From Antennarius striatus (lineage: Eukaryota > Chordata > Actinopteri > Lophiiformes > Antennariidae): a stretch of 64,000 bases of DNA. This document shows, in pieces, positions 3,531 to 64,000 of the stretch. The stretch covers positions 24,851,501 to 24,915,500 of the forward strand of contig NC_090782.1 in assembly GCF_040054535.1 (NCBI RefSeq), written 5' to 3'. Below the pieces are notes generated by a model. The model was given only the letters and a program-made list of their open reading frames with translations, did not search any database and was not told the DNA's origin. The position numbers and the translations under genes are program-made. Position 1 is the stretch's first letter; every line of letters starts with the position of its first letter.

Positions 3531-7215
<3,685 letters not shown>

Positions 7216-18634: not shown

Positions 18635-19124
18635 GATGAAGAGGAAACAACTGGAGATAGAGAGACTTGATCTCTCCTGTACTTTAATGTCCGGGTGTTG
18701 AGAACAGATTAATACCTGGACGCTGGAGGCGTTCCTCGTTTGTCCAATCATAACCTGAAGTCATATCACAAACATATCTATTTTTTAAACGATGGCTGTT
18801 TACCTTTGCTGAACCTGTTCAAAATGATTATATGATGATGGTTATATTTGTTTGGTGTTCTCTCTATTTTAAAACCATTTCAGAAACATTTTTGTTGTTT
18901 TTCTATACATCTAATTTTAACAACATCTTAAAAATGAAAAATTATTAAGTTGTCTTATGGAACATTTATGGAAGATCTTTAGGGTAACACTGGAGCAAAA
19001 TCATAGAATTTCCATTGTTTCCTCAATTAATCTTGATTCTTGGGGGTTTCTTTGCTTCCTTCACTTGTTCTTTCTTTAACTCTTCATTTAAATAAGATGA
19101 GAATGGCTAAATGAAGCTCTAGAT

Positions 19125-28701: not shown

Positions 28702-30028
28702 TTAAGCGGTTTATTATCAAAACATGTAGGCCTATGGCTTTTTGTACAAATGCATCATATTAAAAATAACACTTAAAAAAAACAGCATTAGTGGTTGAGT
28801 TTTTTTTGTTGTTTTGTTTTAACTGTTTAAAACCATACAAACTGACAAACCACTGTTCAAAATACTAAACATGGAGGATTCAAATGCATTTGGACAAAGA
28901 TGGTTGAAGGGATGGGTTTTCTATCCACTGTGCTTATATTCTATAAAAGTAAGGTTTATTCCATACGTCATCAATGAATGGCACATGTATGCAGTCCTAA
29001 GGGATACTTCCATAGTAAAGTGTGTAAATGTACACTGATCACAACTATGTCAGGTCTATGCAGACGAATCTGCTCTATTCTAAAGTTCACAGACTTCAAG
29101 AAACTGTCAAATATTGTGCTTTCTGGCTAGAGTTACACATCGTAGAGCAGGATTACAAGAATACCACAGTACACCAAACAAGGAGTGAGACTTGGGAGTG
29201 GAAATATCTGCTAATTAAGGAGGTATTTCAAACGACAAATTGGCCTTGGCAGCATCACAAAATAAATACTGGGGTTTTTTTTAAATCACATTCTGTTTCG
29301 TTGTAAACAGAGTCGTCCTGATAAAGCGTTCAAATGCCAAGATGTGTCATCGGACATGTGGAAGGAATCGGATCGATCGCTCCGACATCCAGTCAACACT
29401 CAGATTTGTTTCGGCACTACAGTCACTGCTTCCAGGCTACACCTGCAGTCTGTCAAGGTCTCCGGCTAAGACAACCATCATACACCCAACAAAACAGCAG
29501 TAACGCTCAGCGTGAGCCGACCTCACCTCCGAGGATAAAGTGCCACATCGGACTTCTAGTAGAGGGATAAGAGGAAAACAAAAGTGTTTGTGCCCTTTCA
29601 TGCAAAGAGTGGTAATGTAAAGCCGATCCCTGGATCAATGTGTTGGCTGAAAATCACAAACACTTGATTGTGTCTCTGACATTTAGTGCAAAATAACTTG
29701 TAGAGAATTCTAAGAGGAAAATTCGAACAGAAAGCTCCTGCGTCTGCTTCTTTTATCTTCCCCGCAGATAGGACGGCAGTGCAAGAAAAACATCAGACCT
29801 TCATATTATTGAACACACTCCAGTCCTGGACCGTTCTTTTTTGGCAACTCCTGAATGAATCATCGTCACTACGAACTACACAAACTTTAATCGTCACCAT
29901 CACAAACTTCTTCGGAGTTCATCTGGTTCATCCGAACGATTCTTTTTTTTTTTTTTCTCCCTTAAAACCATTCAGTCGGGGTAATGCTGGAGCCATTTAA
30001 CAGTACAGAGGTTCTACTGCTCTGACGC
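28702..30028 (-). other. Probable 3' UTR of slc22a23
   Basis: No exon, repeat family or RNA gene is seen between the psmg4 end and the slc22a23 stop codon. A T-rich run at 29941-29957 is the only low-complexity tract. Assignment as 3' UTR rests on the reverse-strand polyadenylation signal at 28685. Confidence 0.45.
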
Positions 30029-36000: not shown

Positions 36001-39000
36001 TGGTGCACGATTCAAACTAAAGTTTTGAAGTGAAGCATCCCCACCAAGTTATTCTACGCTCCAGTCGTTCTGATTCTGCCCCCCATGTGTTTCCCCTTTT
36101 ATTATAATCATCTGATCCGCCCAGATCGGCTCCACCTGTGTCTCGTTTTCCCTGTTTGCTTCATTTTTTTTCACCTGTGTCTCATATTTAACCTTTTACT
36201 CCTGGAGTTTCTGCTCAGTACTTCTATGAATTGTTTGCCTGCTTTTTTCTCAATCATCCTTTTAATTCACAATTCTTCACACACAATTTCAATTTAATCT
36301 GGATCCAGATTGAAAAATGTTTGTAGTATTTCATACGTAAACCGTGGTGGAAAAAAAAAGACATTTTATGGTGTTTATCTGTGCGTAGTGTAGAGGTAAA
36401 TTATATATTTAGAGGTAGGGAAGACTGTCCAGCCTCAGCAGACCTACTATTCTGGTAATAGATCAAATGAGACATTTGAAATTTAAATATGATAAAACCA
36501 ACGTTTAACCCTTCACGCTCTAGAGCAGAAACGGACTTGAATCCAGTTTAAAAAAACTTCGTCCCACAGCAAGACATTTTTAATTCCCCTGAGGAAATAA
36601 AAGCAGGAAGACTAACAAAGAATCTCAGATTCCGGACGCGTTCACCCAGAGGTTCAAACGGCGTGCTGCTATCCAACATTTTCAGCGAGTCTATTATGGG
36701 CTATCCTAACTTGAGTTTCCTCAAAGCGAGCGGTTGTGCAGCGACAGCTCCTCCGACTGCCTTCATCAACGCCTCACGAAGACTCACAGCAACACCTTTT
36801 TTTTGTTGCACTTCAAGGCGCAGGCACACAATGTGTTTGCTCCTGCCGTCGTTGTAGACGACTAAAACGCCGGGGCCGGCGAGGAGTCGCCAATTATTTC
36901 AGTTAGAACAGAGCCGGACAAAAATACTGCCGTTAATCTGTGTTGGGATTAACGAGAATGTCAAAAACACAAACCAATCGACTGCTTGAGGAAATCTATT
37001 TTCAGACGCATCTGAAACAAAAGTGGCTCCGAGGCAGGAAAAACGAAGAACTAAGGCCATTAAAAGTTGAAGGTTTTTGCTGCTCAAAGTGATCAGAATG
37101 TAACTGAGACAGGGAATATTGATCGTCTGGAGTGTTTCTCAACTCCACTTGGTGTTTTTCAACCATTTCTTTGTGTTACTTTTCACATTCTTGTCTTCTC
37201 GGAGATGGATAGAAACCCCTCCGACTCCAACATTCCCACCCGGCCGGGGCTTCAGGTTCCATTCAGGACAGTCTTATAAACGTCCATTTGTGTATGTCGA
37301 GGATGAAACTCGGCAGACGGCTCGGAGGCGTCCGTGGAGATTTATTAGGACCCCCTGCTGAGAGCGACAAAACCATTCCAACAGCCAAGCTCAGACTCTT
37401 ATCTTCGCTTTCACCCCCGAGGTGAGGCCAAAACAGGAAACAGGAAGAGGAAGAAGGACAGGGATGAGCCAGAACGTCGGGGAAGACGCCTGGGAAGGGA
37501 AGTACTTACGGAGCACGTAGAGGGAGAGAGCGAGGCCCGCCAAGCAGAATCCCTCGAAGAAGCGTAAGGTGCTGAACATGGTGACGTTGATGGAGAAAGC
37601 CACGCTCAGCCCGAACACCAGCATGAACAGAACCGACAGGATCAGGACTGGGTGTCGGCCAAACCTGCAGGTGGAGGAGCAGAAGATCAGCTGGGCCCAC
37701 TGCTCCAGGGGGGATCAGAGGGTCAATGCGTCGGGTCAGAGCAGGGGTCGCTGTGACCTACACGTTTCTTTACACTGTTACCATGGTGACTGATCCCTCA
37801 CACAAAGCAGAGACTTTTTTTCCCATGAGGCAACTCAGACGGCTGAATTTATCAGGTCAGTTTTTGGCGATGGATGATTTCCAAGCCAACTTTGCGGTGG
37901 GGGTTAGGGGGCAGGCAAACCGAACAGACCTGTAGGACTGTTCGTTTGTGGGGGTTAGGGGGCAGGCAAACCGAACGCACCTGTAGGACTGTTCGTTTGT
38001 GGGGGTTAGGGGGCAGGCAAACCGAACGGACCTGTAGGACTGGTCGTTTGTGGGGGTTAGGGGGCAGGCAAACCGAACGGACCTGTAGGACTGGTCGTTT
38101 GTGGGGGTTAGGGGGCAGGCAAACCGAACGGACCTGTAGGACTGGTCGTTTTGGGGCCGACACCTCTATGATAACATGGTCTTGCGAAGGAGAAGCTCAT
38201 AAACGTCTTTGCTAAGTTTTTCTGTTGACTGTGACTCTAAAATAATTCTAAAATTGACTGTCAGCTTCATAAACTCAATTTGGCTGCATGTTCCTGAGCA
38301 GGAGCTCAGCTCAGGCTTTAAGTTCTTTAAGTTGGAGCCAGAAATCTTCGGCCCACTCAGAACGAATCCACCGCCGTCTGGTCGCTGACTCAGCACGCCG
38401 CGTTCCCGACAGACACTTACCAATCAGCCATGACGCCCATCACCAGGTAGCCGAAGATGGAGCCCACCAGCAGGGAGAACTTGGCGATGTGAACCTTCCA
38501 GGCTGAATCACACACCAGGTTCCACTGGAAAGAGACAGGGGGGGTGGGGGTTGGATTCATGACGACTGACCAGCGCGTTAACATCGATCTACCAGCACTC
38601 TCCAAATACTCGAATACGCGTGAACCGATGTAGGCGCGTTGTGTTTTTGGGGGGTGGTGGTTGGTGGTGCGTGATGCTGACTCCTTCACACCGAGTCTGA
38701 GGCGCTCGCTCGTTACCTTGGTAACCACGTTCTGACTCAGTCCCGTCTGCAGCTCCAGCCTCCACTCCTTGCAGGCGCACAGCATTCCGTCTCCGGGTCC
38801 CTCCTCCCCGGTGCCGTTGGCCGGGAGCTCCAGCGCGGGCGCGGCGCCGGTAACCGGCGGGGCCGTCGCGGTCCAGTTGCTCTGATTGGCTGGGGGGGGC
38901 AGCACGCACGTGCCGTGCGGCTGCGCCAGGAGGAAATAATCCGAAAACTGGCTAAAGCCGATGAACAATGCCGGTATCCAGGTCAGGACCACGAGCTGCC

Positions 39001-39139
39001 GCTGATGCCTCCCGAAGCCCCCCAGGGACGGCAGGACCGAGCCGTCGACGTGCGGCAGCAGCCGCGGCGCCGGGTGTTCCAGCGGGGTGAAGCCGTTCTC
39101 CGGCGGGTGGCTGCTCGCCTCCGGCCGGCCGGTGGCCAT
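30029..39139 (-). CDS. slc22a23: Solute carrier family 22 member 23, orphan MFS transporter
   Basis: Nine coding exons on the minus strand: 38717-39139, 38421-38524, 37510-37664, 32584-32770, 32233-32360, 31913-32015, 31575-31801, 30726-30849 and 30029-30449. The sum is 1872 nt, 623 aa, all phases closed. It belongs to the organic-ion transporter branch of the major facilitator superfamily; substrate unknown. Diagnostic stretches: LTWIPALFIGFSQFSDYFLL (first membrane segment), a large glycosylated loop (NQSNWT, NGTG), WNLVCDSAWKVHIAKFSLLV, FGRHPVLILS, NVTMFSTLRFFEGFCLAG, SLTGYGIHHCFARSMM, MFSSHAVSTLSIFFCAEITP and LVLASAGFGMLTAPIMELHN. The start at GCGATGGCC has good context. Intron 3 is 4.7 kb. 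Relative to the human protein as I recall it, about six residues are added in CRHWPDRDDWQ (exon 4). The last exon and third exon boundaries are firm; the acceptor of the eighth coding exon (GGACAG/TTCTC) is slightly less so. Confidence 0.93.
30544..30569. repeat. (CAT)n microsatellite
   Basis: About nine CAT units in the last intron of slc22a23. Confidence 0.85.
31214..31392. repeat. 25-bp minisatellite in slc22a23 intron 7
   Basis: About seven copies of a 25-base unit, GAGCTAACCCGTCGCTTTGG plus TAAAC, at strict 25-base spacing (for example AGCTA at 31216 and 31241). Variation is limited to single positions (CGT/CAT, GCTTT/GTTTT). No spacers are present. Confidence 0.9.
32771..37509. other. 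slc22a23 intron 3, no further gene seen
   Basis: A 4.7-kb intron. It holds a C/A homopolymer run (about 33778-33806), a (GGA)n tract (about 35373-35396) and a hAT-like piece (34830-34956). Several short open frames lie here (for example 33142-33420, 35278-35592, 35660-35920) but none has family similarity or splice support. Confidence 0.6.
34830..34956 (-). mobile_element. hAT-like element fragment
   Basis: Shares TGTGTTAGCGGC, GGAGTTTCAGG/GAAGTTTCACTTC, AGAAGGTAGTCATGTGACTG and AGGCAAGCATCT with 21115-21235 inside the element at 20890-21420. Both ends are lost. Confidence 0.7.
37897..38151. repeat. 51-bp minisatellite in slc22a23 intron 2
   Basis: Five copies at exact 51-base spacing (starts 37897, 37948, 37999, 38050, 38101). 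Each contains GTGGGGGTTAGGGGGCAGGC and CTGTAGGACTG. Because 51 is divisible by three, frames on both strands stay open (RTCRTGRLWGLGGRQTE-type text), which gives false open frames. The G-rich strand contains TTAGGGGG-type runs. Confidence 0.93.
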
Positions 39140-40060
39140 CGCGCCGCGGCCACAAAGAGAGCAGCTGGGCGCCCCCCCCCAACCCCCTCCCGGTCCAAGC
39201 GCTTTGCGTTCAGCACCTTGACACAAAGAACCCCCCCCGGTGCGGAGAAACCAATAAACACCCGATCCAAAACGAGAAAAAAAACCCACACAAGGGCTGC
39301 GTTCCGTCCCGTTCGGGCGTGGGGAGGCAGACAATCACCGAGCGCTCGTCCTCATGGTGGGGGGGCGCGTGGAGACCGTGGGCTGGGATGGGTGTCCATG
39401 CTCTCCCGCTGCTGCTCCTTCATCCGCGCGCGCCACAGGTCTCATACCTGCCCGTCACGTGACCTCTCGTCGGTGTGCGTGACCCCCCCGCCCCCCCCAG
39501 TTCCTGCCCGGTTCAGTCCGGTGGAGAGAAGCGCCGGGATGTGCCTGTCGGTGCGCCGTCGTCAGGTCAATGGGACGCGGAGCCACCGCGGGGGCTGGTG
39601 GGAGAGATGATGATGGGGGGGTGGGGGAGACAAGCCCCGCCCCCTCCCGGTGGCGCTACGCGCTGTGATTGGTGCGCCTTCAGAAGGGCGACTGCGCAAC
39701 GGACGCGCGTCTGCGCGCAACAATGATCCCCTTTGTGCGTCCGGCGCGGATCAGGCTGGTTAGGATCATCGATTACTGATGATTTACGATCAGATGATCA
39801 GCTGGGGGGCGGGGGGGGGCGTTGATGTGTTCACTGACCGATCCGCGGTGGGTGTTTCCCGTCGTTCAGATCTCCGTTCAGGGACAAAAGAACGGCGCAG
39901 GGGTTTGGGTGGCGTGGCGCCCTTCCGCCGCCAGGGGGCGCCAACCGATCACGGTGCGCTCATCCGTCCTCGTTGATTACATTTCCTGACGTTAACAAGA
40001 CGGTAAATAAAGTGTGGACACACCGGGGGGGCGTTAAAGATGCGTTCAGGGCCCGGTGGG
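38600..40060. promoter_or_regulatory. CpG-rich 5' region of slc22a23
   Basis: Dense CpG sequence covers coding exon 1 and about 900 bases upstream of the ATG at 39139 (for example CCGCCGGAGAACGG, GCGCGCGCCACAGG, GGACGCGCGTCTGCGCGC). It is by far the most CpG-rich stretch in the window and probably contains the slc22a23 promoter. No TATA box is evident. Confidence 0.6.
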
Positions 40061-45596: not shown

Positions 45597-47450
45597 ATGA
45601 GTGTGTACGGGTCTCAGAAGGAGCTGAGCATGAGCCGCAGGGTCGGGTCCAAAGGCGACCTGAGTGGCGGGGTGAGCCACTATTACGCACGAAGCGAAGT
45701 CATCCACGGAGGCGGTAATGGATACGACACCAGCATGGACGGATACAACACCTACAGCGTTACTAAGACCTCCATGGGCGGAATGGGAGGCGGAATAGTG
45801 AGCGGAATGTCAGGCGGAATAGCGAGCGGAATGTCAGGCGGAATAGTGAGCGGAATGTCAGGCGGAATAGCGAGCGGAATGTCAGGCGGAATAGTGAGCG
45901 GAATGTCAGGCGGAATGAGGTAAGAATCCCTCCATTCTTCTTCTTGGCTGTCGTTATTGTCTGTTGTGCTCACCTCCACCTGTTACCTGTCCGTGATGCA
46001 TTCGAACAGGTAACGCGCGCGCGTCACCGTGACTGGCTACTTGCTATCAAACGTTAATCAGCCACCTCACTCCATCCCTGCGTCCGTTCCGCTGCTTGCG
46101 CGCCTCTGCGTCGGGGCGCGTCCGCGTACGGAACCCGGTGATCTGCAGAGGAACGCGGGAGCGGAGCTGCAGGAATGAGTTACACAGAAACTTCTGCAAA
46201 CCCAAAACATGACCCCGGTTTGTGCACCTTTACCTGGGGCGCCTTCAGTTTGTGTGTTCATTGAGTATAACGTGAATAAATAGAGATTAAATAATAAATA
46301 GAATACAGTATTTTCCGCACCATAAGGCGCACTGGACTATAAGGCGCACCCTCAATGAATGGTCTATTTTTTTTTAAACCTTTTTCATATATAAGGCACA
46401 CAGGATTATAGGGTTCACTGTCGGTTTTGAGAAAATTAAAGGTGCGACGTATAGCGCGGAAAATACTGTAAATAGATTTAATAAATGATAAGTAAGTAGA
46501 AATAAATAAATGTACAGAATAAATACATTTCGCGAATAAATGGATTTTCACATCACAGACCAGACATTTTGGTCCGTGATGTGAAACTGCGGTTCGTCCA
46601 TGATGTCACTGTTATGGGTGTGAACTCACGGAGTTCATCAGAGACTCTAAATCTGATCATTCATTGGGATCATCGGGTCTGATGACTGAACTTAACCTGG
46701 TTTCCATGGTTACTACTGCATTATGGCACAACAAAAACAACAACAATAATAATAATGATAATAAAAATAAATGTTAAAAATGTGGTAAACCAGCTGATTA
46801 TACCCTGACAGTAATGTCTGATCAGGTTGCCACGGCAACAACTTTTAGGCCTCTGGCAAACAGCTAAACCTGCACCCAGAACAGCTAAATTTTTCCTTTT
46901 TTCTTTCTTTCTTTATTTTTGCATTAAAACGTTAAAATATCTCCTCCAGCCGTCAGAGACAAATTACGTTGTTTCCTGATCACATGATCAACCCGAGAAC
47001 CAGAGGAACCTGAACACGTTCCTGCACCGCCGCCAGCATGAGGTCACATCCTGCAGAAACACGACGCCAGAGCCCCGAGCAACAGGAGCTTGGCGCCCCC
47101 CCTCCCCCCAGCACCCCTGGGTATTAGAATATCCAGTTTTAACACATGGCAGACATGAAGCAAACAACTAATTTGTCAATATTTAACGCCTTTGAGAAAG
47201 TTCAAGCAACTTCTAGTTGCATGTAAACATCACAAGGGCTGCCGGTGTTTCCTGGAAGACCACCAATAGAACTCACAAAACTATTAACAGGATAAAAAGA
47301 AAAGAAAAATGACTTCATTTAGCTTGTCTGACACAGGGGTCACAAAAAAAGTTTAAATAAAATTAATAAAAACTGCTCCAGAACGGACAAAAGGTTCAAC
47401 GGAGTCCGTAATGAGAAGCTGTGGTGGTTCAGTGCAGTAACTGATGATGG

Positions 47451-48173: not shown

Positions 48174-51100
48174 CAACAACTGAGGAAGGTGAAGAAGAGT
48201 TTTAAAATGTAAGAAAGTAAAACGAATATTAAAGAGCTCCAGACTCAAGATGGATCAGATAGACCCCCAAACAGGTGGACCCTCAAACAGGTAGAGCCTC
48301 AAACAGGTAGAACTTCAAATAGGTCGACCCCTCAAATAGGTGGAGCCTTGAACAGGTAGAGCCTCAAACAGGTCGACCCCTCAAATAGGTGGAGCCTCAA
48401 ACAGGTAGAGCCTCAAATAGGTGGACCCTCAAACAGGTAAAATTGAGAGCTGTGCCAGAGAAGTACGCTCAGATGTCAGAACATCATGTACCTGGTGTGA
48501 AAACATTCTTCTGCTGACTCATCAGATCGAAGGACTTCTAGAATAGTTCAGGAGAGTAGACACAAGAGACAGAACATCTGATTGTCTGGAACTGTCATAT
48601 CAAATTTCTTCTGTTGGATTCCTGAGATATTTCCTGTCAACCAGTCGGTTGCTCTGTCGCCCCCTTCTGGTGACAGGAAAAACAACTAAACACGATACAC
48701 CCCGACCTTATATATTTCTCGGGTTATTTCCTGAAAATTAAAGCAAGTTTTGAAAGATGCACTTTGTTGAAGTGACTAACAGAGAGACAGTAAACTAGGA
48801 TCTGTCTCAAACAACCAGAAAGAACTATAAAACCCTTCTCTTTCCAGAATAACCTGTTCCGACAAGTCCGGTCTGCATTCCTGCTGTGCTGACCGGTTTA
48901 ACTTTTCTCTACCTGTTCGGTTTTGCAGCGTCTGATTGAAACGGCGCCTTGGGGGGACGATCCAGCAGCCATCGACCAGCAGCTCATCAGCCACCAGAAG
49001 TTCCACAGTTCCATCCAGAGGAGCCCCGAGGTGGACCGGGCCAGAGACGACCTGGTGGGTACAGCAGGACCTGGATCTGGTTCTGCATCAATAAAAAAAA
49101 AAAAGTCAAATGAGAGATTCGGCGGATGATGGTGTGACATATTCAACTTGTTCTCCTTGCAGATCAAGAAAGGTGACAAAGCTAATCTGCATGCTCTGGA
49201 TCAGGAATGGGACAGTTTGCAGGTGAACAGAAATAAACGCCAAGTTCCTAAATCCTCACTGTTGGAGCTAAAGGATCTGTTGAGTGATCAAACTTCTGCT
49301 CCTTCCCCAGAAAATGTCATTCGGTCGCTCCAAGCAGCTGCAGGACCTCCAGCAGATCATTCAGGAGATATCCAGGGAGATCATGTGGGTGAACGAAAGG
49401 GAGGAACAGGAGCTGATGTTCGATTGGGGAGACAAGAACATCAACCAGTACATTCCACGCAAACAGGAGAGCTATTCTGTGAGTAAAATGCCTGGAGGGT
49501 AAAAGTTCAAAGCTGTTGTTTCAATCACACGAATGTCCTTCTTGAAGTTGATGAGGATCAGAACACGGACTCTTCCCCCAGCTGCATCCTAATGTTCTTT
49601 AACTTTTTTTTAATGGAACAGAAACTAATGAGCGCCCTGGAGGTCAAAGAGAAGGACCTGAATAAACTCAAAGCCAGAGTGGACTCCATCCTGAAGAACG
49701 ACCACCCAGCTTCAGACAAGATTGAGGTGTGGAACCGTCCTGTTATTCAGACTGCAGCGCTCAGCGTTGACATGCATCCGTGGACGCTGGAACCTCGTCT
49801 TTACATTTGTTCTTTTCTGTTTCAGGCTTACAGGGACACCCTCCAGACTCAGTGGAGCTGGCTGCTTCAGATTACCAAATGCATCGACACACACCTGAAG
49901 GAGAACGCAGCCTACAGCCAGGTAACATGAGCAAACATGAATTCAGTAGCAATTTATGTGTGAAACTACAGCTCAACGCTCCAGAGAAGGCTTTTATTTT
50001 GGACAAGGTTCATCAGAGGGTGTACCGTTGATTAAAAAAGGTTAGTGTAGAACTTTGGAGAACATATTTGGAATTACCGGAGCAACTGTTAAAGATTTAA
50101 AGGTAAAATTCCCTCATTCCAGTTCTCTCTCGCTAAAGTTGTCATTTGTGGTGCCCCCTGATGTTTGTATCGGTACAGACATGCTTTTTCCTCCCAACAA
50201 GCCACCCATGTTAAAGTTCCACAAGGTATTCGTTTTCATTTATATACCTCAGATCTTCATGACGTCACATGTTTCTCAACAGTTCTTCAAGGAAGCCAAT
50301 GAAACGTACAGCAACCTGCAGAAGGAACACGAGACGGTCCGCAAGAAGTTCACCTGTGATCGGAATACGTCTTTAGCCGACCTGTTGGAGCTCCTCAAGG
50401 GACTGGAGGTATAAACAACACAAAGACCACACAACACAATACAAAACAGCTTTTAACAGCAATGACATGCCAACAGGAAGTCTTCACGTCTCCTTCGTGC
50501 GAGTCTCCTTCAGGTCAGTTGGAGGCCACACCGATCAGGTCTCAGCAGACTGGCCAAGGATGGACTGGCTAATGTTGTTAGCACAAGTCACAAGTCAAAC
50601 AGTTGAACTGCTTTTCGCCTCTTTACACATGAACTACTAAACTGAACAAAACGTTTAGTTAAGTTTAACATTAAGATTTAGAATGTTTCTGTTGAGGCTT
50701 GAAAAGTTAAAAAGATGTTCACTGGATTATTCGTCCTTTACTTGATTTTCCTGCTTTAATAATTGCTGACTGTTTTTTCTAACAATCTCCAGAGAGAAAA
50801 GGAGAAGATCCTGGAAAACAAGAGGCTTATTCAGCCTCTGGTCAACAGCTCCAAGAACATCGTGAGACTGAAACCCAGAAACCCTGAAGACAAGAGCAGC
50901 GGCCCCATCCTCGTCAAGGCTTTGTGCGACTTCAAGCAAGACCAGGTCAGTCCAATATAAACTGTATATTTATGACTTATATATATTCACAAATGGTAAT
51001 CAACAGGATCGAGGGTATTTATTGATGATCTTCTTGGCCTTGCAGAAGGTGATCTGTAAGGGCGACGAGGCAATCCTAAAGAATAACAATCAACGCAGTA

Positions 51101-54100
51101 AGTGGGAAATCACCGGTCCAGGAGGGCTAGATATGTCAGTGCCCTCAGTCTGCCTGATCATACCGCCTCCTAACCCTCTCAGCATCAGTCTGGCCAACAA
51201 GTAAGACTCAAAGACGGCTTGTGTTTGTGTTGCTGACACATGTCAGTACTCAAACATATTTAAATGTCATGTCTCTCTTATCCAAAGGAACGATCAGTAC
51301 TATGAGGCCATCCTGTCCATCTGGAATCAGCTGTACATCAACGTGAAGAGTCTCATTGCCTGGCAGTATTGTGTCCAGGACATCACATACATCAAGTCCC
51401 TGACCATCTCAATGGTAAGTGATGAATACACTTGGTTTTGTACATTCACAAATGTCGATTGTGATCAATCAGGTGAATATTAGTACCAATTGACATATGG
51501 CCACATGCCAGGAAGACAGGAAACAGGGGAATCAATGGAAAACAGCTCCCTGTCCTTTAGTAAAATCAACTATAAGCTCCTAAAAAACTACATTAATATC
51601 AGGTTTCTGATATGATTCAGACACAAGTCAAACATGTTTTCTATGTTTGTTCAGCTGTCTAAGATGCGTCCGGAAGAGTATCGACAAATCATCAAGACTC
51701 TCGAGACTCACATGTCGGAGTTCAAGGTGAGCAGCCTCGGCTCCCAGATGTTTGCCGATGATGACAAGAGAGCCATGGAGGACCAGTTCACAGGAGCTCA
51801 GTCCCACTATGACCAGCTGGTGGTCCAGCTGCCTACCTACAGTAAGTAATACAGGACTGAGAAGAACTTATCGCCTTCCCCAAAATGAAGAAACAGAGTT
51901 TATACTTTGAATTCTGAAAAGATGACATCTGTAATTGTGTTGTAGCTGCAGCTAATGTTAGCATGTCTGCAGCCAATGCTTGGATTTTTCTTGGATGTTG
52001 TTAGCTAATTTTACCCAATGAATACATGTATTGCAAACTATTAGCTGGTAAATATTACAGAATGTGAGCATCATCATAGTGGCAAAACCATCCAACGCAA
52101 TGTCACTCCTTTTTCTGTGGATATGGTAACTATATCAACTTTTAAATAGTTACATGTTTTCACTCGCAGTTGTACAACAGGGACAAATAGAAGCACAACA
52201 AGCAGCTGAGCAGCAACACCAACAGCAGCTGATTATAATACAGCAGCAGCAACAAGCAGCAGCTGAAGAGGAGGCCAGAAGGCTTGAGGAAGAACAACTG
52301 AGGGAGGAGTTGATAAAAACAGCAGAGAGGAAAGCGGAAGTGAAAAAAGAGGTGGTGAAAAAAGAACAAGTGATCAAGAAGGATGTCGTGAAAGTGACCA
52401 AGACTGAACCAGCAAGGAGGAAGGTGTTGGTGTCCTCTTCTTCTAACCCCGTCCCGGCATCTCACAGCTTGACTGAGCTGCATGCGCTCAGACTGAGACT
52501 GGAGGCCGCCGAGGGAACCCTGAGTCAGCACGTTCACATCTGCGTCGGAGACGACGGTGTGAACGATTGCAGCCTCAAGATCACTCAGCTGGAGGTAGGC
52601 GCTAAGACAACACCAGACCAGCCTGGAGTCGAGTCCATGTCAAATTCTTCATGGCTGCGTTTCTTCGTAGACGGTGCAGCATGACGTGGACTCGATGCGC
52701 GAGGAGTTCTTACGCCTGAGGGAGCGTATTTTGAAGGAGCTGGATGAAACAAGTGATCTGGATAAAGCCCAGTTCCTCCGCAGTGAGATCGGAATCATCA
52801 ACCAGAGACTGGGTAGTCTGGAGAGCAGCTCCTCGGCTTATCTGCAACGGTAACCCAAGACAGTTTTTTTTTTGAAGCTCTGGAAGAACTGTAGAGCCAC
52901 TAGAACAGGCATGAGCAAAGTATGGCCCGTGGGCCATGTTTGGCCCTTAAGGCGTTGTAATCCGGCCCGCCAAAATTTTTTACATTATATAATACATTTT
53001 GTAGAATAAATGCAGTTTACTGCGGTGCACTGGCGTCGTGCCCGGAGTGTCCCCCGCCTCACGCCCTATGCCACTGGGATAGGCTCCAGCTCCCCGTGAC
53101 CTGCTGCGGCGGATGTAGCGGTGGTAATATGAAAATGAAAATGAAATGAAATGCAGTTTAAAAGTTTTTTCAACAAACCTTGGCTGTGTATGCTTTGTTG
53201 CTTGTTAAAGGCCAAAACAGTTTATATGATAGTTTGGGTTTTACCATCTTATTATTGTTGCAAAGTCTTTGTAGACATCATCTAAGACGTAAGAAAGGAA
53301 ATGGTTGTACCATGGGGGGAAAGAACTCTTTAGTAAGCTTTCTGACTTTTCTTCAGCTCTTCATGATCTCTCCTTCTTCATCAGGCTGCGGGCTCTAAGG
53401 GACATGCTGGAGAGCGTGGACCGAGCTGAAGACATAGTGAAAGTTCACGAGGCGAGACTGACAGAGAAAGAGACCACCTCCCTGTTACCCGGTGAAGTGG
53501 AGGCTTACATATCGACCCTGACGGTATTCAAATTTCATTATTCAAGTGGTTTGAGCATCATATTGCAGTTGCTGTGGGAAGCTTTTGCTCCAGACTGGGA
53601 CCGTCCTGCTGTGTTGGTTGTGATGAATGCTCTGATTCCTGCTGCTTGAAAAGCACTCGTAAACCCTCACCCTCGCCTGGTGTCTTCTATATGCAGAATA
53701 TGAAAGCAGAGCTGGATAATAAGAAGGATGTTCTGGCCTCCATGGAGGCAGAGTTGTCCAAGGCGAGCCACTGGAACAGCCAGGTGGGTGGACCCTCCCA
53801 CAGGTGCGACATGATGCTGTGCAAATACACCGAGCAGGTGGGGGTGCTGTCAGACCGCTGGAGACGAATCACTGGACAGATTGATACCAGGTGTGCTTTT
53901 CTGTACACAACTTCAAACCAGGTTCCTAACCCAGAGCTGAGAATTTACATCTTAGGGCTGGGTGAGATATATTTTTCAAAGCACAACTTGTATTTATTTC
54001 TGTTTAATTGGTCAGACTCCAGGATTTGCTGCTGTACCAGCCCCAGCTGCTGCACTACAAAGAAACCAGCAGCTCTCTTGATGACTGGATCAACGACACT

Positions 54101-57100
54101 CGTAACAAACAGGACGTCCTGCAGGCAACCAAGATAGATAGCCTCCAGGCACTGCAAGACCACATGAATGACCAGAAGGTCCCCTGTTCACCTCTTCATT
54201 CTCATTGGTTGAAATGCGGGCAGTCTTGAGGGTTTGTCTGACTTATCTCTAAACTGTGTTATTAAGGCACTAAACTCAGAAATCAAGGCAAAGAGGGAGA
54301 CGGTAGAAAGCGTGTTGAAGGACAATGAGGCCTGTGTCAATTCAATCAAGGTAAGGATGCTGACTTCAAACTCCTCAAAACCATTTAGTCCAGTTCATGA
54401 ATTTTTCAACTGCCTTTGTTTTGCAGGACTATGAAATGGACCTCGCCTCCTACACATTTGGGTTAGAGACTTTACTCAACATCCCAATTAAGAGGACCAT
54501 GCTGAGGTCACCGTCGATGGATCTAAATCAAGAGGTTTGGCACCAAACTGGAAGTGTTGTCCCTTTTGAAGACATTCAGGCAACTTTTGTCTGTAGCGTG
54601 AATCATTTTATTTCTTAGTTTTATACGTTACCAGTAGTTTGCTCCAAAAATGAAAATGCAAACTGAAAGTTCCAGAAGCTTAACTGCAAAAGAGCATTTC
54701 GACATTCTCCTAAACCCTGTCTGAAGAGGGTACATTAGCATAATCATTTGCTAATCCCACATTAGACAAGCTTGAGTTTTCTTAGTCTCTGCATACCTCA
54801 TTGTTTCCACTTATTACACAACATCAGGAGCTTTCGATTTGGATGCTACAGTGAAACTTTTGTTTTAAAAAAATTGTAAATAATTTCTTTCTAAATCAAT
54901 CTGGGACCTCCAGACTGACTCATTTATATGACAGTTTCTCTGAGTCAACACAATGAAATATTTCTGAAAGAGTCATTAAGTTTTCTTTGTGTTCATCTCA
55001 GGCTATACAACTGCAAACCCGTTACATGGCGTTGCTTACCTCATCTGGAGACTACTACAAATTCCTGGGAGAACTGCTCAAAAACATGGAGGAACTCAAG
55101 GTGGCGATGCCCTTGTTTGTAACTTACTGAATGTTTACAATTTGTTTCTTCTTAGAAACACTTGTGTCAGATAAATCCAGCCAAATTAATAGTTTAAGTA
55201 GACTGTCTTAGGTTTTATTAAACAGGTTTATTGAATCTCAACCTTTGGTTTCAGATTCGTAACACCAGGATCGACCTGTTAGAGGAAGAACTTCGACTTC
55301 TGAAGGATAACTTCCAAGATTGCAACGCTAAGAACAAATCTTTGGCGGACGACATCGCCCGATATAAGCTGGAGCTGTCCCAGTCGCAGGAGCAGTTGCT
55401 GTCGGTGGAGGAGGTAAAGCAGAGCACCGTCCTGAAGTGCAACGCCGCCAAGGAGTCCCTGGATAGCACTCAAAGCCAGCTGGCCGACCTCAACCATCAG
55501 GTGACGAATCTCAAGTACCTGCTTGAAGAAGAAAAGAGGAAGAAGAGGCTGGCAGAGGAACGCTACACTCAACAGCAGGTGGAGTATGACTCAGTGCTGA
55601 GGAAGAGGCAGAAGGAGCTGGAGACAGTCAGCTGGTCTAAGGTGGAGATCGAGAAGGGTGTGGCCAGCAAGGATCGTGAGATCCAGCAGCTGCGGAGGCA
55701 GTTGGCTGAGGAAGCAGACAAGATCAAGGAGCTACAGAGGGAGATGTCAAAGGTAAGAAGCAAATGCGTTGTGGAGATAAATAACCTAAAGCTCAACTAT
55801 GAATCCCAGATCCACATCAGTCGCACAGACGTCCAGAGACTGGAAGCCCAGAGAGAGGAGGAAGCAGCTGAGCTCCAGCTGCAGTTTGACGGGATTCTGG
55901 CAGAAAGGAGTAACATGGAGGAAGAGCTGAGGAGGCTCAGGATCCTGGCCAGCGAGGCTGAGGAAAGAAGGAAGATCGCAGAAGAAAAAACTCGCCATCA
56001 ACATGCTGTCATCTCAGAGGAAACACACAAGAGGAGGGAACTGGAAAGAGAGGTGGAGGTGCTGATGAGACACAGCGATGAAGAAAGCAACCGGTATAGA
56101 GAGGAGCTGGCAGCAGTCATGAAGAGTCTTCAAGAGAAGAGTGAGGAAATGGCCTACATCACGCACAGTCTCGAGGAGGAGGCGCGCAGGAGGAGAACCG
56201 TCGAGGAGGGGCAGGGTGTGATGGATAATACTTTGGCTGAGCTGCAGGTGAAGCTAACCAGTTCCTCGGTGGCGGTGACCCAGTTGGTGGAGTGCAAGGA
56301 CGAGCTTGAGAAGATACGTTTGGAGCTGGATAGAGAGAGCAGGGAGAGAAGAAGAATGGAACAGAAGATGAGCAGATTACAGGGACGCATGAAAGACCTT
56401 CTGGCTGTGAGAGATGGTCTGGAGAGTCAAGTGGAAAATCTAAGGCAGGCTAACCAAGACGAAGTGGCCAGAAGACAGCAGGTAGAAACAGAGCTGGAAA
56501 AGACCGCTTCATCCATGAAAGAGTACACCAGCACCATCACCATGCTACGCCAGAGTCAAGACCAAGCCAGCTTCTCAGAAAAGATACGAGACGAAGAGTT
56601 TCTAAAGTTGCAAGAAGAACTAGAAAGAAGCTTCACACAGAACAAGACGTCTGCAGATCATGTGACAAAGCTAGGGGCGGAGCTGAAAGCCTTGCAGCAA
56701 CAACTCCTGCAGGAGCAGGCAAGAGTCAAAGATGCAAACCTCAAGAATGAAGGTCTTAATAGAACTATAGAAGAGAGTAGTAAAGCACTGCAGGAGAATT
56801 CTGTGGCTCTTCAGAGGCTGAAGGAGTTGACAGAAACTCAGACCAGAGAGAGGCTGCGGATGGAAGGAGAACTGAGAGCAGCACAACACGATAAACAGGA
56901 ACTTGCGAGGTCCAAACTTGGAATTGATGATGAGTTTTCCTCTCAGATTGCCGCCCTTGAGCTGCAGCTTCAAGCCAGTGAGCGCAGCAATAAAGATCAC
57001 TGCAACCTGGTGTCGGAGCTCTCATCCGAGAGGGAGAAACTCCACCTGGAGACTGACAAATTACAAAAGCAGGCCAGCGAGGTACATGGAGGTTTGGCAT

Positions 57101-60100
57101 GTAGTCCTGGACTGCTCTCCCTTTTCCAAATCAGACTCCCAAGTTGGACCAATCACGTAGTCGTCACTGTGTGGTCAAACGCTTCCTGCATGCTGGAACA
57201 CCTCTAGAACCCCTGTAGATGCCTTCCATGTAGTAGCTCTGATTTGAACACTATCACTATCACTATCCTGACAACAAGATCTGTGCCCTCTGACCTCCGT
57301 CATCTGTCTGCACTGCTAATGTATGTGCAGCGTGCATGCTTTTTTTGCTTATTCCAGAAGAGTGAACACCTTTGGCATCTAACTCATCCTGTTTTCTCTG
57401 GTTTGATCGTTGTTAATTTACAGTAGAGTCTTAATGATTGTAAAGACACATTTTGCAAATTTGTAAAAGCAGCAAATCCACATTTCAGGTACCTTTTCTT
57501 TTGAGGTACCTTTTTTTTGCTATTGAAGATCCATCACTCAAGATTTACCCTGATCGGCCAGTGCTGTTTCACAAATTTACAGAATGTGAAAATCTTCCAT
57601 TCCCAGTCTGAATATACACTAGAAGCTTTTCGAAAAGTTGATCTGTTAATTTTCGAAGTTGTGTAAACATATTTTTTCTGCATGCATAAGATAGTCAATT
57701 TCACAGAAACAATATATACCTATACATACTTTGATTTCCCTGCCTTGTAAGACATTGTCTTTTTTTTTTATTTCTAAATGGGAAATAGCAGCATATGTAG
57801 TAAATGTATTACTTAACATAGCAAACGTCATCCTGGAGGAACACACACACTTGCTATTCGTGTTTTTGACTATTATTGTCTTCAAAGTGTGCCATCATTT
57901 AATGTGTTTTGTCATATTTTACATTAAGATAAACAAAAACACAGGAACAATCTACAACATCAATTTGGTTGTTTTTTATTCAACCGCTAGAGAAATTGGT
58001 GGACATCCTTGCAGTACTTTGCTGCTGGTATATTCCAATATAACAAGTGTGTCCTGTCCTCCTGGATAGTAGTAAAGTTTGCAAATCCCTGGTTGTGGTG
58101 TATGTTAGATTTAGCACAATATTATTTTCCCATTTTATTTAATTTCAATGTGTGCCACAATGTGAAATACGGATAAGGAATATACTGATATTTCTATACA
58201 GGTATACCTCGGCTTACTTCGTTTTAACTTACGTTGTTCTCAATTATGTCAGTTTTTTAAAAAAAGGAAAAATAAAAATCAAGCTTACGTCATTTACTTC
58301 ACTCCATAAGAGTAAAAACATTTAATATTATTAGCTCATAGCAGCTGCTGTGACCTGCAATGCGGCAGAATTTGACTTATGTTATTTTTCGACTTACGTT
58401 CTGTCTCCTGGAATCAATGAATGATGTAAGCAGAGGTCTACCTGTACAAAAAATTTATGGTTGTATTTTTGAGCCAACTAACCTTTCATCTCTCTGCTGT
58501 CCTTCCTCCCACCAGACAACTGCGACGATGCAGTCCCTTCAGTCCCAGTACAAAGAGATTGTGGTGGAGAGAGACGCTCTGTTGCTGAAACTGCAATTCT
58601 CAGGAACTGACAAAGATCACTCTCAGAAGCTAGAGGAGGAACTTGCTCTTATCAAATTTTCCCAAGAGTCAGAGCTTCGCAATAAGCAACGTCTACTGGA
58701 GGAAAATGAAAGGGTGAAGAAGGATTTAGATTACTGGAAGGAACAGCATGATAGTAAGCAGAGTCTGCTCCGGCAATATGACGTGGACAAGGAACGTCTA
58801 GAGAGGGAAAAGAAGTCTTTCAAAAGTGAGATAGACAGGCTGAGGATGGAACTCCGAGAGGTTGAGGAGACATATAAAATTAAGCTGGCAACCATACAGA
58901 GAGATGTGAAGGAGGTGACCATTGTGAGAGAAAATGTTGAAACTGAGCTGACAAGAGCTGCACCGCCTCCAACCTTGGACGCTACCGATCTGATTTTTGA
59001 TGGTGTACGCAAATCAGTGACAGCAAACCAGTTGCTTGAATGCGGTGTTCTGGACAAACCAACATTCAACCAGCTTGTGAAAGGGCATAGAACTGTCCCT
59101 GATGTTTCTGTTGACAAAAGAATGAGTCTGAAAGGTACAGGTCCAATAGCTGGTGTGGTAATTGAAGGTCCAAAAGGTCCAGGGTCCATCACTGGACTCG
59201 TACGCAAAATGACTTTCACTGAAGCAAAGAAAGGGAATCTCCTGACACCATATAGTGCCGATCTCTTATTGGATGCCCAGGCTGCCACAGGTCACATAAT
59301 TGACCCCAGGATTAATCAGAAATTTACAGTAGAGGAGGCATGTAATCAAGGTGTGGTGGATGAAGAGGACAGAAAAAGATTGCTGGCAGCAGAAGCTGCA
59401 GCGGTGGGATACATGAGTCCTGGGTCAAGAAAACCTCTTTCAGTATTTCAGGCCATGAAAAAGGGAGAAGTTGACAGGAACACAACACTACGTCTGCTAC
59501 AAGCACAGGAATCTACGGGTGGCTTCCTAGATCCTACATTCAGTGTCTTTCTTCCCAAAGAGAAAGCAATGGAACGTAATTTGATTGATGATGACATATC
59601 TCATGCACTGAATCAGAGGCCTGAACTCTATCAAGACCCAGACACTGAGGAAGGTGTAACTTATATGTCACTGAAGAGACAATGTAAGGTAGAGCCACAC
59701 ACCGGCCTTCTGCTTCTTCCTGTCCCTGAGAAGGTAGACCCTTCTGAACTTGTCTTTAACGGAGTTCGAAAACCTGTCACAGCCAAGCAGCTGGTTGATT
59801 GTGGTGTGCTGGACAAGCCGACATTTAAAGATCTAGAACTGGGAAAGAAAACTGTTACAGAGGTATCTGTAGACAAAAAGATTAGCCTTAAAGGGATGGG
59901 CCCAATAGCTGGGGTTGTAATTGAAGGCCCAAAAGGTCCTGGGTCCATAACAGGACCCTTACGCAAAATGACTTTCACTGAAGCAAAGAAAGGGAATCTC
60001 TTGACACCAGAAGCTGCTGATCAGTTATTGGATGCCCAAGCTGCCACAGGTCACATAATTGACCCCAGGACTAATCAGAAATTGACAGTTGAAGAGGCAT

Positions 60101-63100
60101 GTAATCAAGGTGTGGTGGATGAAGAGGACAGAGAGAGATTGCTGGCAGCAGAATCTGCAGCAGTGGGATATATGAGTCCTGGGTCAAGAAAACCTCTTTC
60201 AGTATTTCAGGCCATGAAAAGGAGAGAAGTTGACAAGAATACAACACTACGTCTGCTACAAGCACAAGAATCTGCAGGTGGCTTCCTAGACCCCATACTA
60301 AGTGTCTACCTTCCCAAAGACAAAGCAATGGAACGTAACTTAATTGATGATGACATATACCATGCTTTGAATCAGAGGCCTGAACTCTATCGGGACCCAG
60401 ACACTGAGGAAGGTGTAACTTATATGTCACTGAAGAGACAATGTAAGGTAGAGCCACACACTGGCCTTCTGCTTCTTCCTGTTCCTGAGAAGATAGACCC
60501 TTCTGAACTTGTCTTTAACGGAGTTCGAAAACCTGTCACAGCCAAGCAGCTGGTTGATTGTGGTGTGCTGGACAAGCCAACATTTAAAGATCTAGAATTG
60601 GGGAAGAAAACTGTTCCAGAGGTATCTGTAGACAAAAAAATCAGTCTAAAAGGTACAGGTCCAATAGCTGGGGTGGTAATTGAAGGCCCAAAAGGTCCAG
60701 GGTCCATAACGGGACCTTTACGCAAAATGACTTTCACTGAAGCAAAGAAAGGTAATCTCCTGACACCATATGGTGCTGATATCTTATTGGATGCCCAGGC
60801 TGCCACAGGTCACATAATTGACCCCAGGACCAATCGGAAATTTACAGTAGAGGAGGCATGCAATCAAGGTGTGGTGGATGAAGAGGACAGAGAGAGATTG
60901 CTGGCTGCAGAAGCTGCAGCAGTGGGATATATGAGTCCTGGGTCAAGAAAACCTCTTTCAGTATTTCAGGCCATGAAAAAGGGAGAAGTTGACAGGAACA
61001 CAACACTACGTCTGCTACAAGCGCAGGAATCTACGGGTGGCTTCCTAGATCCTACATTAAGTGTCTTCCTTCCCAAAGAGAAAGCAATGGCGTGTAATTT
61101 GATTGATGATGACATATCTTATGCTCTGAATAGGAGGCCCGAACTCTATCAGGATCCAGATACTGAGGAAGGTGTAACTTATATGTCACTGAAGAGGCAA
61201 TGTAAGGTGGAGCCACACACCGGCCTTCTGCTTCTTCCTGTTCCTGAGAAGGTAGACCCTTCTGAACTTGTCTTTAACGGAGTTCGAAAACCTGTCACAG
61301 CCAAGCAGCTGGTTGATTGTGGTGTGCTGGATAAGCCAACATTTAAAAATTTAGAAAAGGGAAAGAAAACTATTCAAGAGGTGTCTGTTGATAAAAATGA
61401 TTATCTGAAGGGGACTGGACCTATTGCAGGGGTCGTGGCTGGGAATCGGGGTAAAATGTCTTTGTCTGATGCCAAGAAGCAGAGACTCCTGTCTGAAGAC
61501 AGTGCAGATTTGTTACTGGAAGCGCAGGCAGCCACAGGTCACATCATTGATCCCAAAACCAGTCAAAAGCTGACTGTAGAAGAGGCATGTTCCAGAGGGG
61601 TAGTGGATTTTAGTGATCGAGACAGGTTGTTGGCAGCAGAGGCTGCTGCTGTGGGATATAATGATCCTACCACAGCCAAGCCTTTGTCAGTGTTTGAGGC
61701 CATGAAGAGGGGTGTTATTGACAGAGAGACTGGGCTACGCCTACTGCAAGCTCAGGAGTCCATGGGAGGGATCTTAGATCCTAATATCAGTGTGTTCCTC
61801 CCCAAAGATACAGCTATCAAGCGTGACCTTCTGAATGAAAACCTCCGCCAAGCTCTAAACCAGAATCCAAATTGTTACATTGACCCCGAAACTGAGCTGA
61901 AGTCCAGTTATGGAGCACTGAAAAAAAGATGTAAGCGAGAACCTCACTCAGGTCTGCTGCTTTTGCCCATCTCTGAGACACTAGACCCTTCCAAATTGAT
62001 CTTTGATGGTGTACGTAAGCCAGTGACAGCACAACAGTTGCTTGATCGTGGAGTCCTGGACAAAGTGACATTTAATAAGCTGTTGAAGGGGGAGAAAACT
62101 GTTAGAGAGGTGTCTGTGGAGAAAAAGGGTTTTCTAAAAGGAACAGGTTCCATCGCTGGTGTGGCAGCTGGACCTTTAGGAAAAATGTCTTTATCAGAAG
62201 CCAAGAAGAAGATGCTCATGCCCATAGAGAGTGCAAATATGCTACTGGATGCCCAGGCTGCCACAGGCTACATCATTGACCCCTCAAGTAATCAAAAACT
62301 AACAGTAGATGAAGCATGTTCCAGAGGAGTGGTGGATAACAGAGATAGAGACAGACTGTTAGTAGCGGAGGGTGCGGCTGTGGGCTACCGGGATCCAAGC
62401 ACAGCAAAGCCTCTTACATTGTTTGAGGCAATGAAGAAGGGAATAATTGACTGGAAGACTACGCTACGCTTGCTGCAGGCTCAGTTGTCTGCAGGGGGAA
62501 TCCTGGATCCTCACCTCAGCGTGTTTCTTCCCAAAGAAACAGCTGTAAAGCACAACCTTTTAGATGAGGACCTTTACAATGCTCTAAGCACGGAGCCTGA
62601 ATATTATATTGACCCAGATACTGAACTTGATACAAGTTATACTGCTTTAAAGAGAAGAAGCAAAACAGAGTCTCACACAGGTCTGATACTTCTGCCAATC
62701 ATTGAGAGGAAAGACCCTTCCAAATTGATGTTTGATGGTGTTCGTAAACAAGTCTCGGCCAAACAGCTGTTTGAATGTGGAGTCCTTGACAAGCCAACAT
62801 ACGACCTATTGCTGAAAGGAGAGAAAACTGTCCGTATTGTATCTGTGGAAAAGAAAGTTTACCTAAAAGGAACAGGTCCCATTGCTGGGGTAGTAGGTGC
62901 ACAAAAAATGTCTTTGTCCAAAGCAAAGAAACAGAAGCTTCTGTCTGAAGATAGTGCTAATTTGCTACTAGATGCGCAGGCTGCCACAGGCTACATCATT
63001 GACCCTGAAACTAATCGGGATCTCACAGTAGATGAAGCATGTGCCAGAGGTGTAGTTGACATTACAGATCGTGACAGATTGCTGGCAGCAGAGGCCGCTG

Positions 63101-64000
63101 CTGTGGGATACAAGGATCCTAGTTCCACCAAGTCTCTATCACTTTTTGAGGCCATAAAGAAGGGGTTAGTTGACAGGAAGACTGGTCTACGCCTACTGCA
63201 GGCTCAAGAGGCTGTAGGAGGTATTCTAGATCCCCATCTTGGTGTTTTTCTGCCCAAAGATGCTGCCATCAGGCGCAATCTTTTGGATGAAGACCTTAGT
63301 CTTGTTCTAAAGCAGAGTCCTGCTTTTTATCTTGACCCAGAAACCAAGAATGAGATAAGCTATGGGTCTTTGAAAGAAAAATGCAGCACAGAGCTCAATA
63401 CAGGCCTACAACTTCTGCCAATTTCTAAATTTGACCCTTCTAACCTAATGTTCGATGGCATCCGCAAGACAGTAACCGCACAACAGCTGCTTGATCGTGG
63501 AGTCCTGGACAAAGTGACATTTAATAAGCTGTTGAAGGGGGAGAAAACTGTCAGAGAGGTGTCTGTGGAAAAAATGGTTTTTCTAAAGGGAACAGGTTCA
63601 ATTGCTGGTGTGGCAGCTGGACCTTTAGGAAAAATGTCTTTATCAGAAGCCAAGAAGAAGATGCTCATGTCCATAGAGAGTGCAAATATGCTACTGGATG
63701 CCCAGGCTGCCACAGGCTACATCATTGACCCCTCAAGTAATCAAAAACTAACAGTAGATGAAGCATGTTCCAGAGGAGTGGTGGATAACAGAGATAGAGA
63801 CAGACTGTTAGTAGCGGAGGGTGCGGCTGTGGGCTACCGGGATCCAAGCACAGCAAAGCCTCTTACATTGTTTGAGGCAATGAAGAAGGGAATAATTGAC
63901 TGGAAGACTACGCTACGCTTGCTGCAGGCTCAGTTGTCTGCAGGGGGAATTCTGGATCCTCACCTCAGCGTGTTTCTTCCCAAAGAAACAGCTGTAAAGC
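45597..64000 (+). CDS. dsp: Desmoplakin-family protein with amplified plakin-repeat tail (3' end beyond window)
   Basis: A desmosomal cytolinker tying junctional plaques to intermediate filaments. There are 24 coding exons in view: 45597-45919, 47518-47611, 47708-47829, 47913-48063, 48929-49054, 49163-49222, 49311-49478, 49622-49726, 49826-49921, 50283-50408, 50793-50945, 51046-51200, 51288-51414, 51655-51841, 52170-52594, 52671-52849, 53385-53523, 53697-53890, 54016-54178, 54267-54350, 54427-54534, 55002-55100, 55255-57081 and 58516-64000+. All phases close, giving at least 3565 codons. Order: Gly-rich head; plakin domain with spectrin repeats (TLQTQWSWLLQITKCIDTHL) and SH3 near residues 509-560 (KWEITGPGGLDMSVPSV); YTFGLETLLNIPIKRTM; coiled-coil rod, residues about 1096-1890; then seven or more plakin-repeat modules. 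The rod exon 23 and tail exon 24 layout matches human DSP. Which teleost paralogue this is cannot be decided. Confidence 0.92.
45789..45908 (+). repeat. 24-bp coding repeat in desmoplakin exon 1
   Basis: Five perfect or near-perfect units of 24 bases encoding GGIVSGMS and GGIASGMS in alternation, so the true period is 48 bases. It sits at the end of the head region, just before the first intron, and makes a flexible Gly/Ser/Met linker of 40 residues. Confidence 0.93.
46304..46470. mobile_element. MITE with perfect 15-bp inverted repeats
   Basis: Left end TACAGTATTTTCCGC and right end GCGGAAAATACTGTA are exact inverted repeats. Inside them, CACCATAAGGCGCACTGG and TATAAGGC repeats match the widespread ATAAGGCGCA vertebrate/fish element. 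It is 167 bases long, non-coding, and lies in desmoplakin intron 1. Confidence 0.85.
47444..47498. repeat. (GAT)n microsatellite next to desmoplakin exon 2
   Basis: About 18 GAT units with one AAG-like interruption, ending 20 bases before the exon 2 acceptor (CCGCTGCCCCCTGCAG). The pyrimidine tract of this splice site is therefore very short. Confidence 0.92.
48087..48171. repeat. (CA)n microsatellite next to desmoplakin exon 4 donor
   Basis: About 40 CA units with CGCA interruptions, starting 24 bases after the exon 4 splice donor at 48064. Frames of alternating Cys/Val or His/Thr over it are artefacts. Confidence 0.93.
48263..48440. repeat. 17-19-bp minisatellite in desmoplakin intron 4
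   Basis: About ten imperfect copies of CTCAAACAGGTAGAGCC and variants (CTCAAATAGGTGGAGCC, CAAATAGGTCGACCCCT). Many units contain AGGTAGAG, a weak donor-like string. Confidence 0.85.
52905..53155. repeat. Composite repeat in desmoplakin intron 16
   Basis: GGCATGAGCAAAGTATGGCCCGTGGGCCATG followed by TTGGCCC and CCGGCCCGCC is hAT-like terminal text. It is followed at about 53020-53120 by the fish SINE/LINE tail (GTGCCCGGAGTGTCCCCCGCC, GGGATAGGCTCCAGC) and short GAAAAT repeats. Neither part encodes protein. Confidence 0.5.
58197..58446. mobile_element. mariner/pogo-like MITE in desmoplakin intron 23
   Basis: Ends TACAGGTATACCTC and, inverted, TACAGGTAGACCTC, with TTACTTCG/TTACGTT text repeated inside. 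It is 250 bases, non-coding, and starts about 1.1 kb after the rod exon. Confidence 0.75.
58978..64000 (+). repeat. Tandem plakin-repeat modules in the desmoplakin tail exon
   Basis: Seven in-frame modules: 58978-59736, 59737-60495, 60496-61254 (759 bases each), 61255-61983, 61984-62712 (729 each), 62713-63432 (720) and 63433 to beyond the window. Each opens with DPSELVFNGVRKPVT-type text. Each contains the plakin-repeat signature LLLDAQAATGHIIDP, then VEEACNQGVVDEEDRERLL, a second AQESTGGFLDP and a closing VEPHTGLLLLP. Modules 1-3 share an extra EGPKGPGSIT insert. Modules 5 and 7 are almost identical in DNA (period 1449 bases), so units have been copied recently, in part as pairs. Confidence 0.93.

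Follow-up and report, generated by a model that had tools for sequence, protein, structure and literature searches.

Layout of the array and identity of the gene

The 64,000-nucleotide stretch of the Antennarius striatus genome studied here (the window; C7:24851501-24915500, 24851500 being added to window positions to obtain coordinates on contig C7) holds at its 3'-end part of the last exon of a desmoplakin gene, in which the first plakin-repeat domain (PRD) of the tail, PRD-A, is repeated in tandem. Desmoplakin connects cell junctions with the filament skeleton inside the cell. A preliminary description of the window had reported at least seven modules in a frame open to the edge. Seven were indeed seen, starting at 58978, 59737, 60496, 61255, 61984, 62713 and 63433; the six whole ones were of 253, 253, 253, 243, 243 and 240 amino acids, and the seventh ran for 189 amino acids up to the edge. 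The DNA spacing of the repeats, counted in another register, was 759, 759, 729, 729, 723 and 726, and the amino acid identity between pairs of the seven modules was 60-96%.

In order to follow the frame to its end, 10 kb located 3' of the window were added, with an exact overlap and zero N in the joined sequence. The open frame, which starts at 58354 and crosses the window edge, comprised 3172 codons up to a stop codon ending at 67872 (C7:24919372) and encoded, in one frame, nine PRD-A modules, PRD-B, a linker, PRD-C and a short tail of the Gly/Ser/Arg (GSR) type. The B and C domains and the GSR tail, which the preliminary description had proposed to look for downstream, do come after the A modules, giving a total of eleven PRDs (nine A, one B and one C). 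All nine A modules had 240-253 amino acids, with every DNA length divisible by three, and from 58978 to 67872 the array frame contained the terminal stop alone, whereas the other forward frames contained 200 and 243 stops. The tandem array was confirmed as genuine, with nine A modules in this assembly, more than the seven first counted. The features of the last exon are given below; modules A1 to A6 were delimited by the module alignment and the tree, and those from A7 onwards by continuing the frame past the edge.

58516..58977, +: end of the rod and start of the last exon; acceptor AG at 58514-58515 placed by eye, frame running into the array
58978..59736, +: PRD-A module A1, 253 amino acids, with a 10-amino acid insert
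59737..60495, +: PRD-A module A2, 253 amino acids, with the insert
60496..61254, +: PRD-A module A3, 253 amino acids, with the insert
61255..61983, +: PRD-A module A4, 243 amino acids, head close to the heads of A2 and A3
61984..62712, +: PRD-A module A5, 243 amino acids
62713..63432, +: PRD-A module A6, 240 amino acids
63433..64161 (63433..64000 in the window), +: PRD-A module A7, a chimera
from 64162, +, outside the window: PRD-A module A8
from 64882, +, outside the window: PRD-A module A9
from 65602, +, outside the window: PRD-B
66352-67104, +, outside the window: B-C linker
from 67105, +, outside the window: PRD-C
67732 to the end of the stop codon at 67872, +, outside the window: GSR-type tail

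The seven modules in the window matched the Pfam Plectin repeat in 14 stretches (E 6.2e-217), and on these domain-match scores a chance origin of the module array is excluded. Matches of the array to a phage tail-fibre domain and to DUF1381 fell below the Pfam cut-offs and were taken as chance. Among solved structures, the array was closest to PRD-A/B of human desmoplakin (5dzz_A, with E 2.7e-122). The same strand carries, upstream of the array, the following pieces of the gene.

45597..45923, +: probable first coding exon, ATG at 45597, within an open frame; exon end approximate
50277..50411, +: spectrin-repeat exon piece of the plakin head (Pfam Spectrin_3, E 4e-19)
51616..51846, +: spectrin-repeat exon piece of the plakin head (Pfam Spectrin_2, E 6.3e-21)
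55255..57081, +: coiled-coil rod exon; AG/GT borders by eye

The top solved match of both head pieces was desmoplakin 3r6n, with E 4.5e-5 for the first (plectin being second, 8.7e-5) and E 3.9e-15 for the second. These two pieces, which do not make up a whole head, were the only plakin spectrin matches among 10 upstream open frames searched with Pfam; one other frame gave a weak MRS2-like match below the cut-off and seven gave none. The exon borders at 55255, 57081 and 58516, placed by eye on genomic DNA alone, agreed in phase. The coiled-coil rod lies between head and tail. Pfam gave zero matches on the probable first coding exon, whose product may resemble desmoplakin N-termini. This exon also carries a 24-bp tandem repeat (45778-45916, 5.8 copies, 94% matches), which would encode repeats of the MSGGIVSG/MSGGIASG type.

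When the rod exon (608 amino acids) was searched against the genome (548 Mb in 42 contigs), two matches were obtained, namely this gene and C18:13511998-13513806, the latter being 44% identical over residues 1-607 of 608. A third dsp gene was also sought and rejected: of the 44 candidates scored with the rod exon, just these two matched at E up to 1e-10. The 5dzz_A match, the 3r6n-like head pieces and the rod exon, matched elsewhere only by the dsp gene on C18, bear out the initial proposal of a desmoplakin gene; as judged from its sequence, the array-bearing gene is one of two desmoplakin genes in this genome.

The second gene, located on C18, has an ordinary tail without an array: one PRD-A (start at 13510987), PRD-B, a linker, PRD-C and a GSR tail, with the stop at 13508269. 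This answers the question, raised in the preliminary description, of whether the paralogue lacks the array. Counted from the putative acceptor, the last exon would encode 3118 amino acids (342 kDa) in the C7 gene and 1074 amino acids (120 kDa) in the C18 gene. Identity to the human domain was 60.3% (C7) and 66.5% (C18) for PRD-B, and 59.9% (C7) and 68.2% (C18) for PRD-C, and by these two measures the C7 gene is the further diverged from human. The B-C linker had 251 amino acids in the C7 gene and 158 in its paralogue, the extra length sitting in the Ser/Thr-rich second half of the C7 linker.

Descent and growth of the array

A tree was built from 41 PRD rows, 11 from the C7 gene, 3 from the C18 gene, 5 human and 22 from plectin- or epiplakin-like genes on C9 and C14; four of 41 genome matches were kept out of the trees (two at 16.82 Mb of C14, and those on C16 and C8). 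Modules A1-A9 formed one clade (support 99/97), whose sister was the PRD-A of C18 (100/97) and then human PRD-A (100/95), and the PRD-B and PRD-C of the C7 gene fell with the B and C domains of the paralogue and of human. The copies did not split among B and C domains, and the early claim that all modules descend from domain A held for the nine. Their A-class descent is firm.

An expansion of the array after the split of the two dsp genes is favoured, but not proven. In a 23-row set, placing the C18 PRD-A with human PRD-A was rejected (p 0.0207). Weighing against a post-split expansion, the nine-module clade received just 78/92 in the 23-row tree and 88/90 in an 11-row tree of module bodies from which the heads had been removed, and forcing the C18 PRD-A together with A9 (p 0.0875) or with A1-A8 (p 0.0729) was not rejected in the 23-row set. 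Concerted evolution could also mimic such an expansion.

The term epiplakin-like, used at first for the array, remains apt for its tandem layout but not for its descent. Epiplakin is described as consisting of PRDs only, without plakin head or rod. The gene that we called epiplakin here, from its layout and its position beside a plectin-like gene (C14:17670235-17679684), has ten scored modules in one 3208-amino acid open frame, the last four being near-identical (branch lengths 0-0.011). Both genes thus carry long tandem PRD arrays in one exon-like open frame, which is what might suggest that the C7 gene is an epiplakin, or a desmoplakin to which an epiplakin-derived array was fused. However, the C14 modules grouped with B-type PRDs while the C7 array did not, and grouping the array with two epiplakin rows in the 23-row set was 120 log-likelihood units worse (approximately unbiased test, p 0.00017); moreover, the C7 gene has head pieces and a rod exon upstream and B-linker-C behind the array. 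We therefore give an epiplakin origin practically no credence. Plectin, represented by genes on C9 and C14, shares with the C7 gene a row of PRDs ending in a C-type PRD, but has five B-type PRDs and one C, without PRD-A, according to our tree and to PMC4726743.

The C7 gene shares with the desmoplakin genes of human (DSP) and zebrafish (dspa and dspb) the plakin-head pieces, the coiled-coil rod exon, PRDs of the A class, the order B-linker-C and a tail of the GSR type, and the presence of two dsp genes is as described for zebrafish (PMC10700616). It differs in having nine PRD-A where human DSP has one, and so eleven PRDs where one each of A, B and C would be expected; we count it nevertheless as a desmoplakin variant because order and descent agree.

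Comparison of the modules, with heads and bodies also treed separately, pointed to how the array may have grown. Modules A1-A3 were 84-91% identical and had the 10-amino acid insert in common. A5 and A7 were 96% identical, A6 and A8 92%, and the A5-A6 and A7-A8 units differed in 69 of 1449 bases (95.2% identity). The first 45 bases of A7 were 91% like A9 and 71% like A5, and past them A7 was 87-100% like A5 throughout, counted in steps of 45 bases. Over 90 bases, A2, A3 and A4 had heads agreeing at 96-100%, and the head of A1 was 67-80% like these three, although A1, A2 and A3 have closely similar bodies. Such chimeras, with the switch located in the module head, suggest in-phase unequal crossing-over or gene conversion.

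The ratio of non-synonymous to synonymous divergence (omega) was 0.10-0.33 in 36 of 36 module pairs, many of them with saturated synonymous divergence (dS >1), and the nine A modules are under purifying selection in all 36 pairs. An inflated module count, or an array that is never expressed, has in its favour that the A5-A6 and A7-A8 units are of a repeat type which assemblers can miscount. Against it stand the absence of N in the stretch, the mostly 60-70% identity of the other modules, a frame open over 8.9 kb with the omega values just given, and the intact B domain, linker and C domain behind the array, so that we hold an artefact or a silent array to be very improbable.

Other features of the window

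On the minus strand, between about 3500 and 18800, similar open frames recur at 7024-7320, 12876-13151 and 18338-18760, and a second recurring set lies at 3531-3905, 10327-11094 and 16588-16953; in some of these frames there are repeats rich in Thr and a hydrophobic end. Visual inspection suggests small cysteine-rich proteins, secreted or glycosylphosphatidylinositol-anchored and encoded in a tandem cluster, which might be Ly6-like. Pfam found no match in five of six of these frames and one weak Extensin_1 match, below the cut-off, in the other. Exons resembling an alpha/beta-hydrolase and a major facilitator superfamily transporter were seen at 25900-27240 (+) and 30000-39300 (-); four of 10 neighbour-gene frames were matched in Pfam, with scores below the cut-offs, and the names bphl and slc22a23 are tentative. 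A 51-bp tandem repeat (5.1 copies, 97%) is located at 37897-38156.

Fold, groove residues and possible role of the array

The modules are confidently predicted to form tandem PRD folds. The AlphaFold2 model of A4-A5 had a mean predicted local distance difference test score (pLDDT) of 90.9 and a predicted template-modelling score (pTM) of 0.62, and its best Foldseek match was 5dzz (E 1.5e-52, template-modelling score (TM) 0.69, root-mean-square deviation (rmsd) 6.4); the best single-domain match was desmoplakin 1lm7_A (TM by target 0.94). In the A1-A2 model, with a mean pLDDT of 88.0, the stretches below 50 (66-74 and 319-326) overlapped the inserts. Human PRD A and B are described as bead-like, 54 Å of translation apart and joined by a 4-amino acid linker, and the human three-PRD tail as having a maximum dimension (Dmax) of 178 Å (PMC4726743).

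Six basic residues in the groove of envoplakin (1876, 1895, 1901, 1914, 1952 and 1994; PMC4782060) were mapped onto the 41 rows. Basic residues occupied 1-2 of the six positions in 11 of 11 A rows, all six in 7 of 7 C rows, including the PRD-C of the C7 gene, and 2-6 in the remaining 23 rows (B-type, plectin and epiplakin, the C14 epiplakin modules having 2-4), four of which had 2. At these six known positions no other class was as poor in basic residues as the A modules. At the position of envoplakin R1895, R was present in eight of the nine modules of the C7 gene, with Q in human PRD-A and T in the C18 PRD-A. The net charge of the A modules was low (-3 to +2) and their calculated isoelectric point 5.8-8.5, that of human PRD-A being 9.05.

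PRD-A is reported to occur in desmoplakin alone and to have a positively charged groove (PMC4726743), all three desmoplakin PRDs having a basic one (PMC8745463), and may have undiscovered functions (PMC4782060). A human tail without PRD-A targeted filaments with staining like that of wild type (PMC8745463), and PRD-AB bound vimentin more weakly than did constructs containing the B-C linker (PMC4726743). The least basic groove, together with this dispensability in the human test, favours a spacer arm over an amplifier of binding.

In the explanation that we prefer, unequal crossing-over, or else gene conversion, would have multiplied an ancestral single PRD-A to nine in-phase copies within the last exon, most likely after the dsp genes separated. 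The protein would work as a desmoplakin, with its plakin head at the desmosome plaque followed by the coiled-coil rod, and with the B-linker-C unit as the main anchor to intermediate filaments. Placed between the rod and that unit, the nine A modules, if stacked like human A/B, would form a string of beads of about 49 nm at 54 Å per domain. They would lengthen the tail and serve chiefly as a spacer or load-bearing arm, making at most weak and distributed contacts with filaments. We give this reading, a working desmoplakin with a nine-copy PRD-A spacer arm that leaves anchoring to B-linker-C, a probability of about one half.

Several points weigh against it. The pTM of 0.62 and the rmsd of 6.4 to 5dzz do not fix the angle between modules. 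Just 2 of the 6 groove residues are present in PRD-B of the C7 gene itself and in three other non-A rows, which makes the groove count an unclean separator of classes; human PRD-A has been counted with four basic groove residues (PMC8745463), against two at the six positions used here. In the deletion test, the human tail lacking PRD-A was poorly expressed; removal of B or C altered the staining pattern, but without a statistically significant decrease in the measured values (PMC8745463). Salt was without effect on vimentin binding by desmoplakin PRDs, and PRD-A was reported as taking part in filament binding (PMC6171917).

The last report also speaks for an amplifier of avidity, in which nine weak A modules in series would give strong multivalent anchoring to filaments at each desmosome. 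Single PRDs, PRD-A included, bind vimentin weakly but comparably (PMC4726743), it has been proposed that multi-PRD plakins contact a filament at several acidic patches along its length (PMC4782060), and the R at the 1895-equivalent position in most modules would fit. Such amplification is a tentative alternative, since at most two of the six groove positions are basic in nine of nine modules, their net charge is small, PRD-A was dispensable for filament targeting and PRD-AB bound less than the B-C linker constructs. The idea put forward at the outset, a multiplied filament-binding unit, is so far unsupported if an efficient unit is meant, given the groove positions and the dispensability of PRD-A; the weak vimentin binding reported for PRD-A (PMC4726743) speaks in its favour.

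The array could instead be a docking platform binding several copies of another partner, such as a signalling, junction or skin-specific protein. When a derived surface patch common to the nine modules was sought, 95 invariant positions in 238 gap-free columns yielded 12 residues common to all nine and unlike both C18 PRD-A and human PRD-A, as docking might require; but these were mostly conservative hydrophobic swaps, with one K and one E as the charged residues and without a new surface patch, and we regard docking as unlikely.

By its predicted product, the gene is a variant of desmoplakin and not an epiplakin. A multiplied PRD-A was unreported in the titles and abstract openings listed by our literature search, and may already sit in annotated fish proteomes, which lay outside that search. 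The zebrafish probably lacks such an array, because a tail exon of 342 kDa does not fit the bands near 240 kDa given for Dspa and Dspb in one blot description (PMC10700616). It is conceivable, though less than probable, that this is a giant desmoplakin whose module number sets the reach or compliance between plaque and filament, that in-phase unequal crossing-over is perhaps still altering this number, and that the paralogue retains the ordinary role. A nine-copy PRD-A beside an ordinary paralogue would offer a natural test of whether this domain serves filament binding, spacing or another partner, and would bear on how variable the length of the link between junction and filament can be, a question relevant to the mechanical behaviour of skin and heart.

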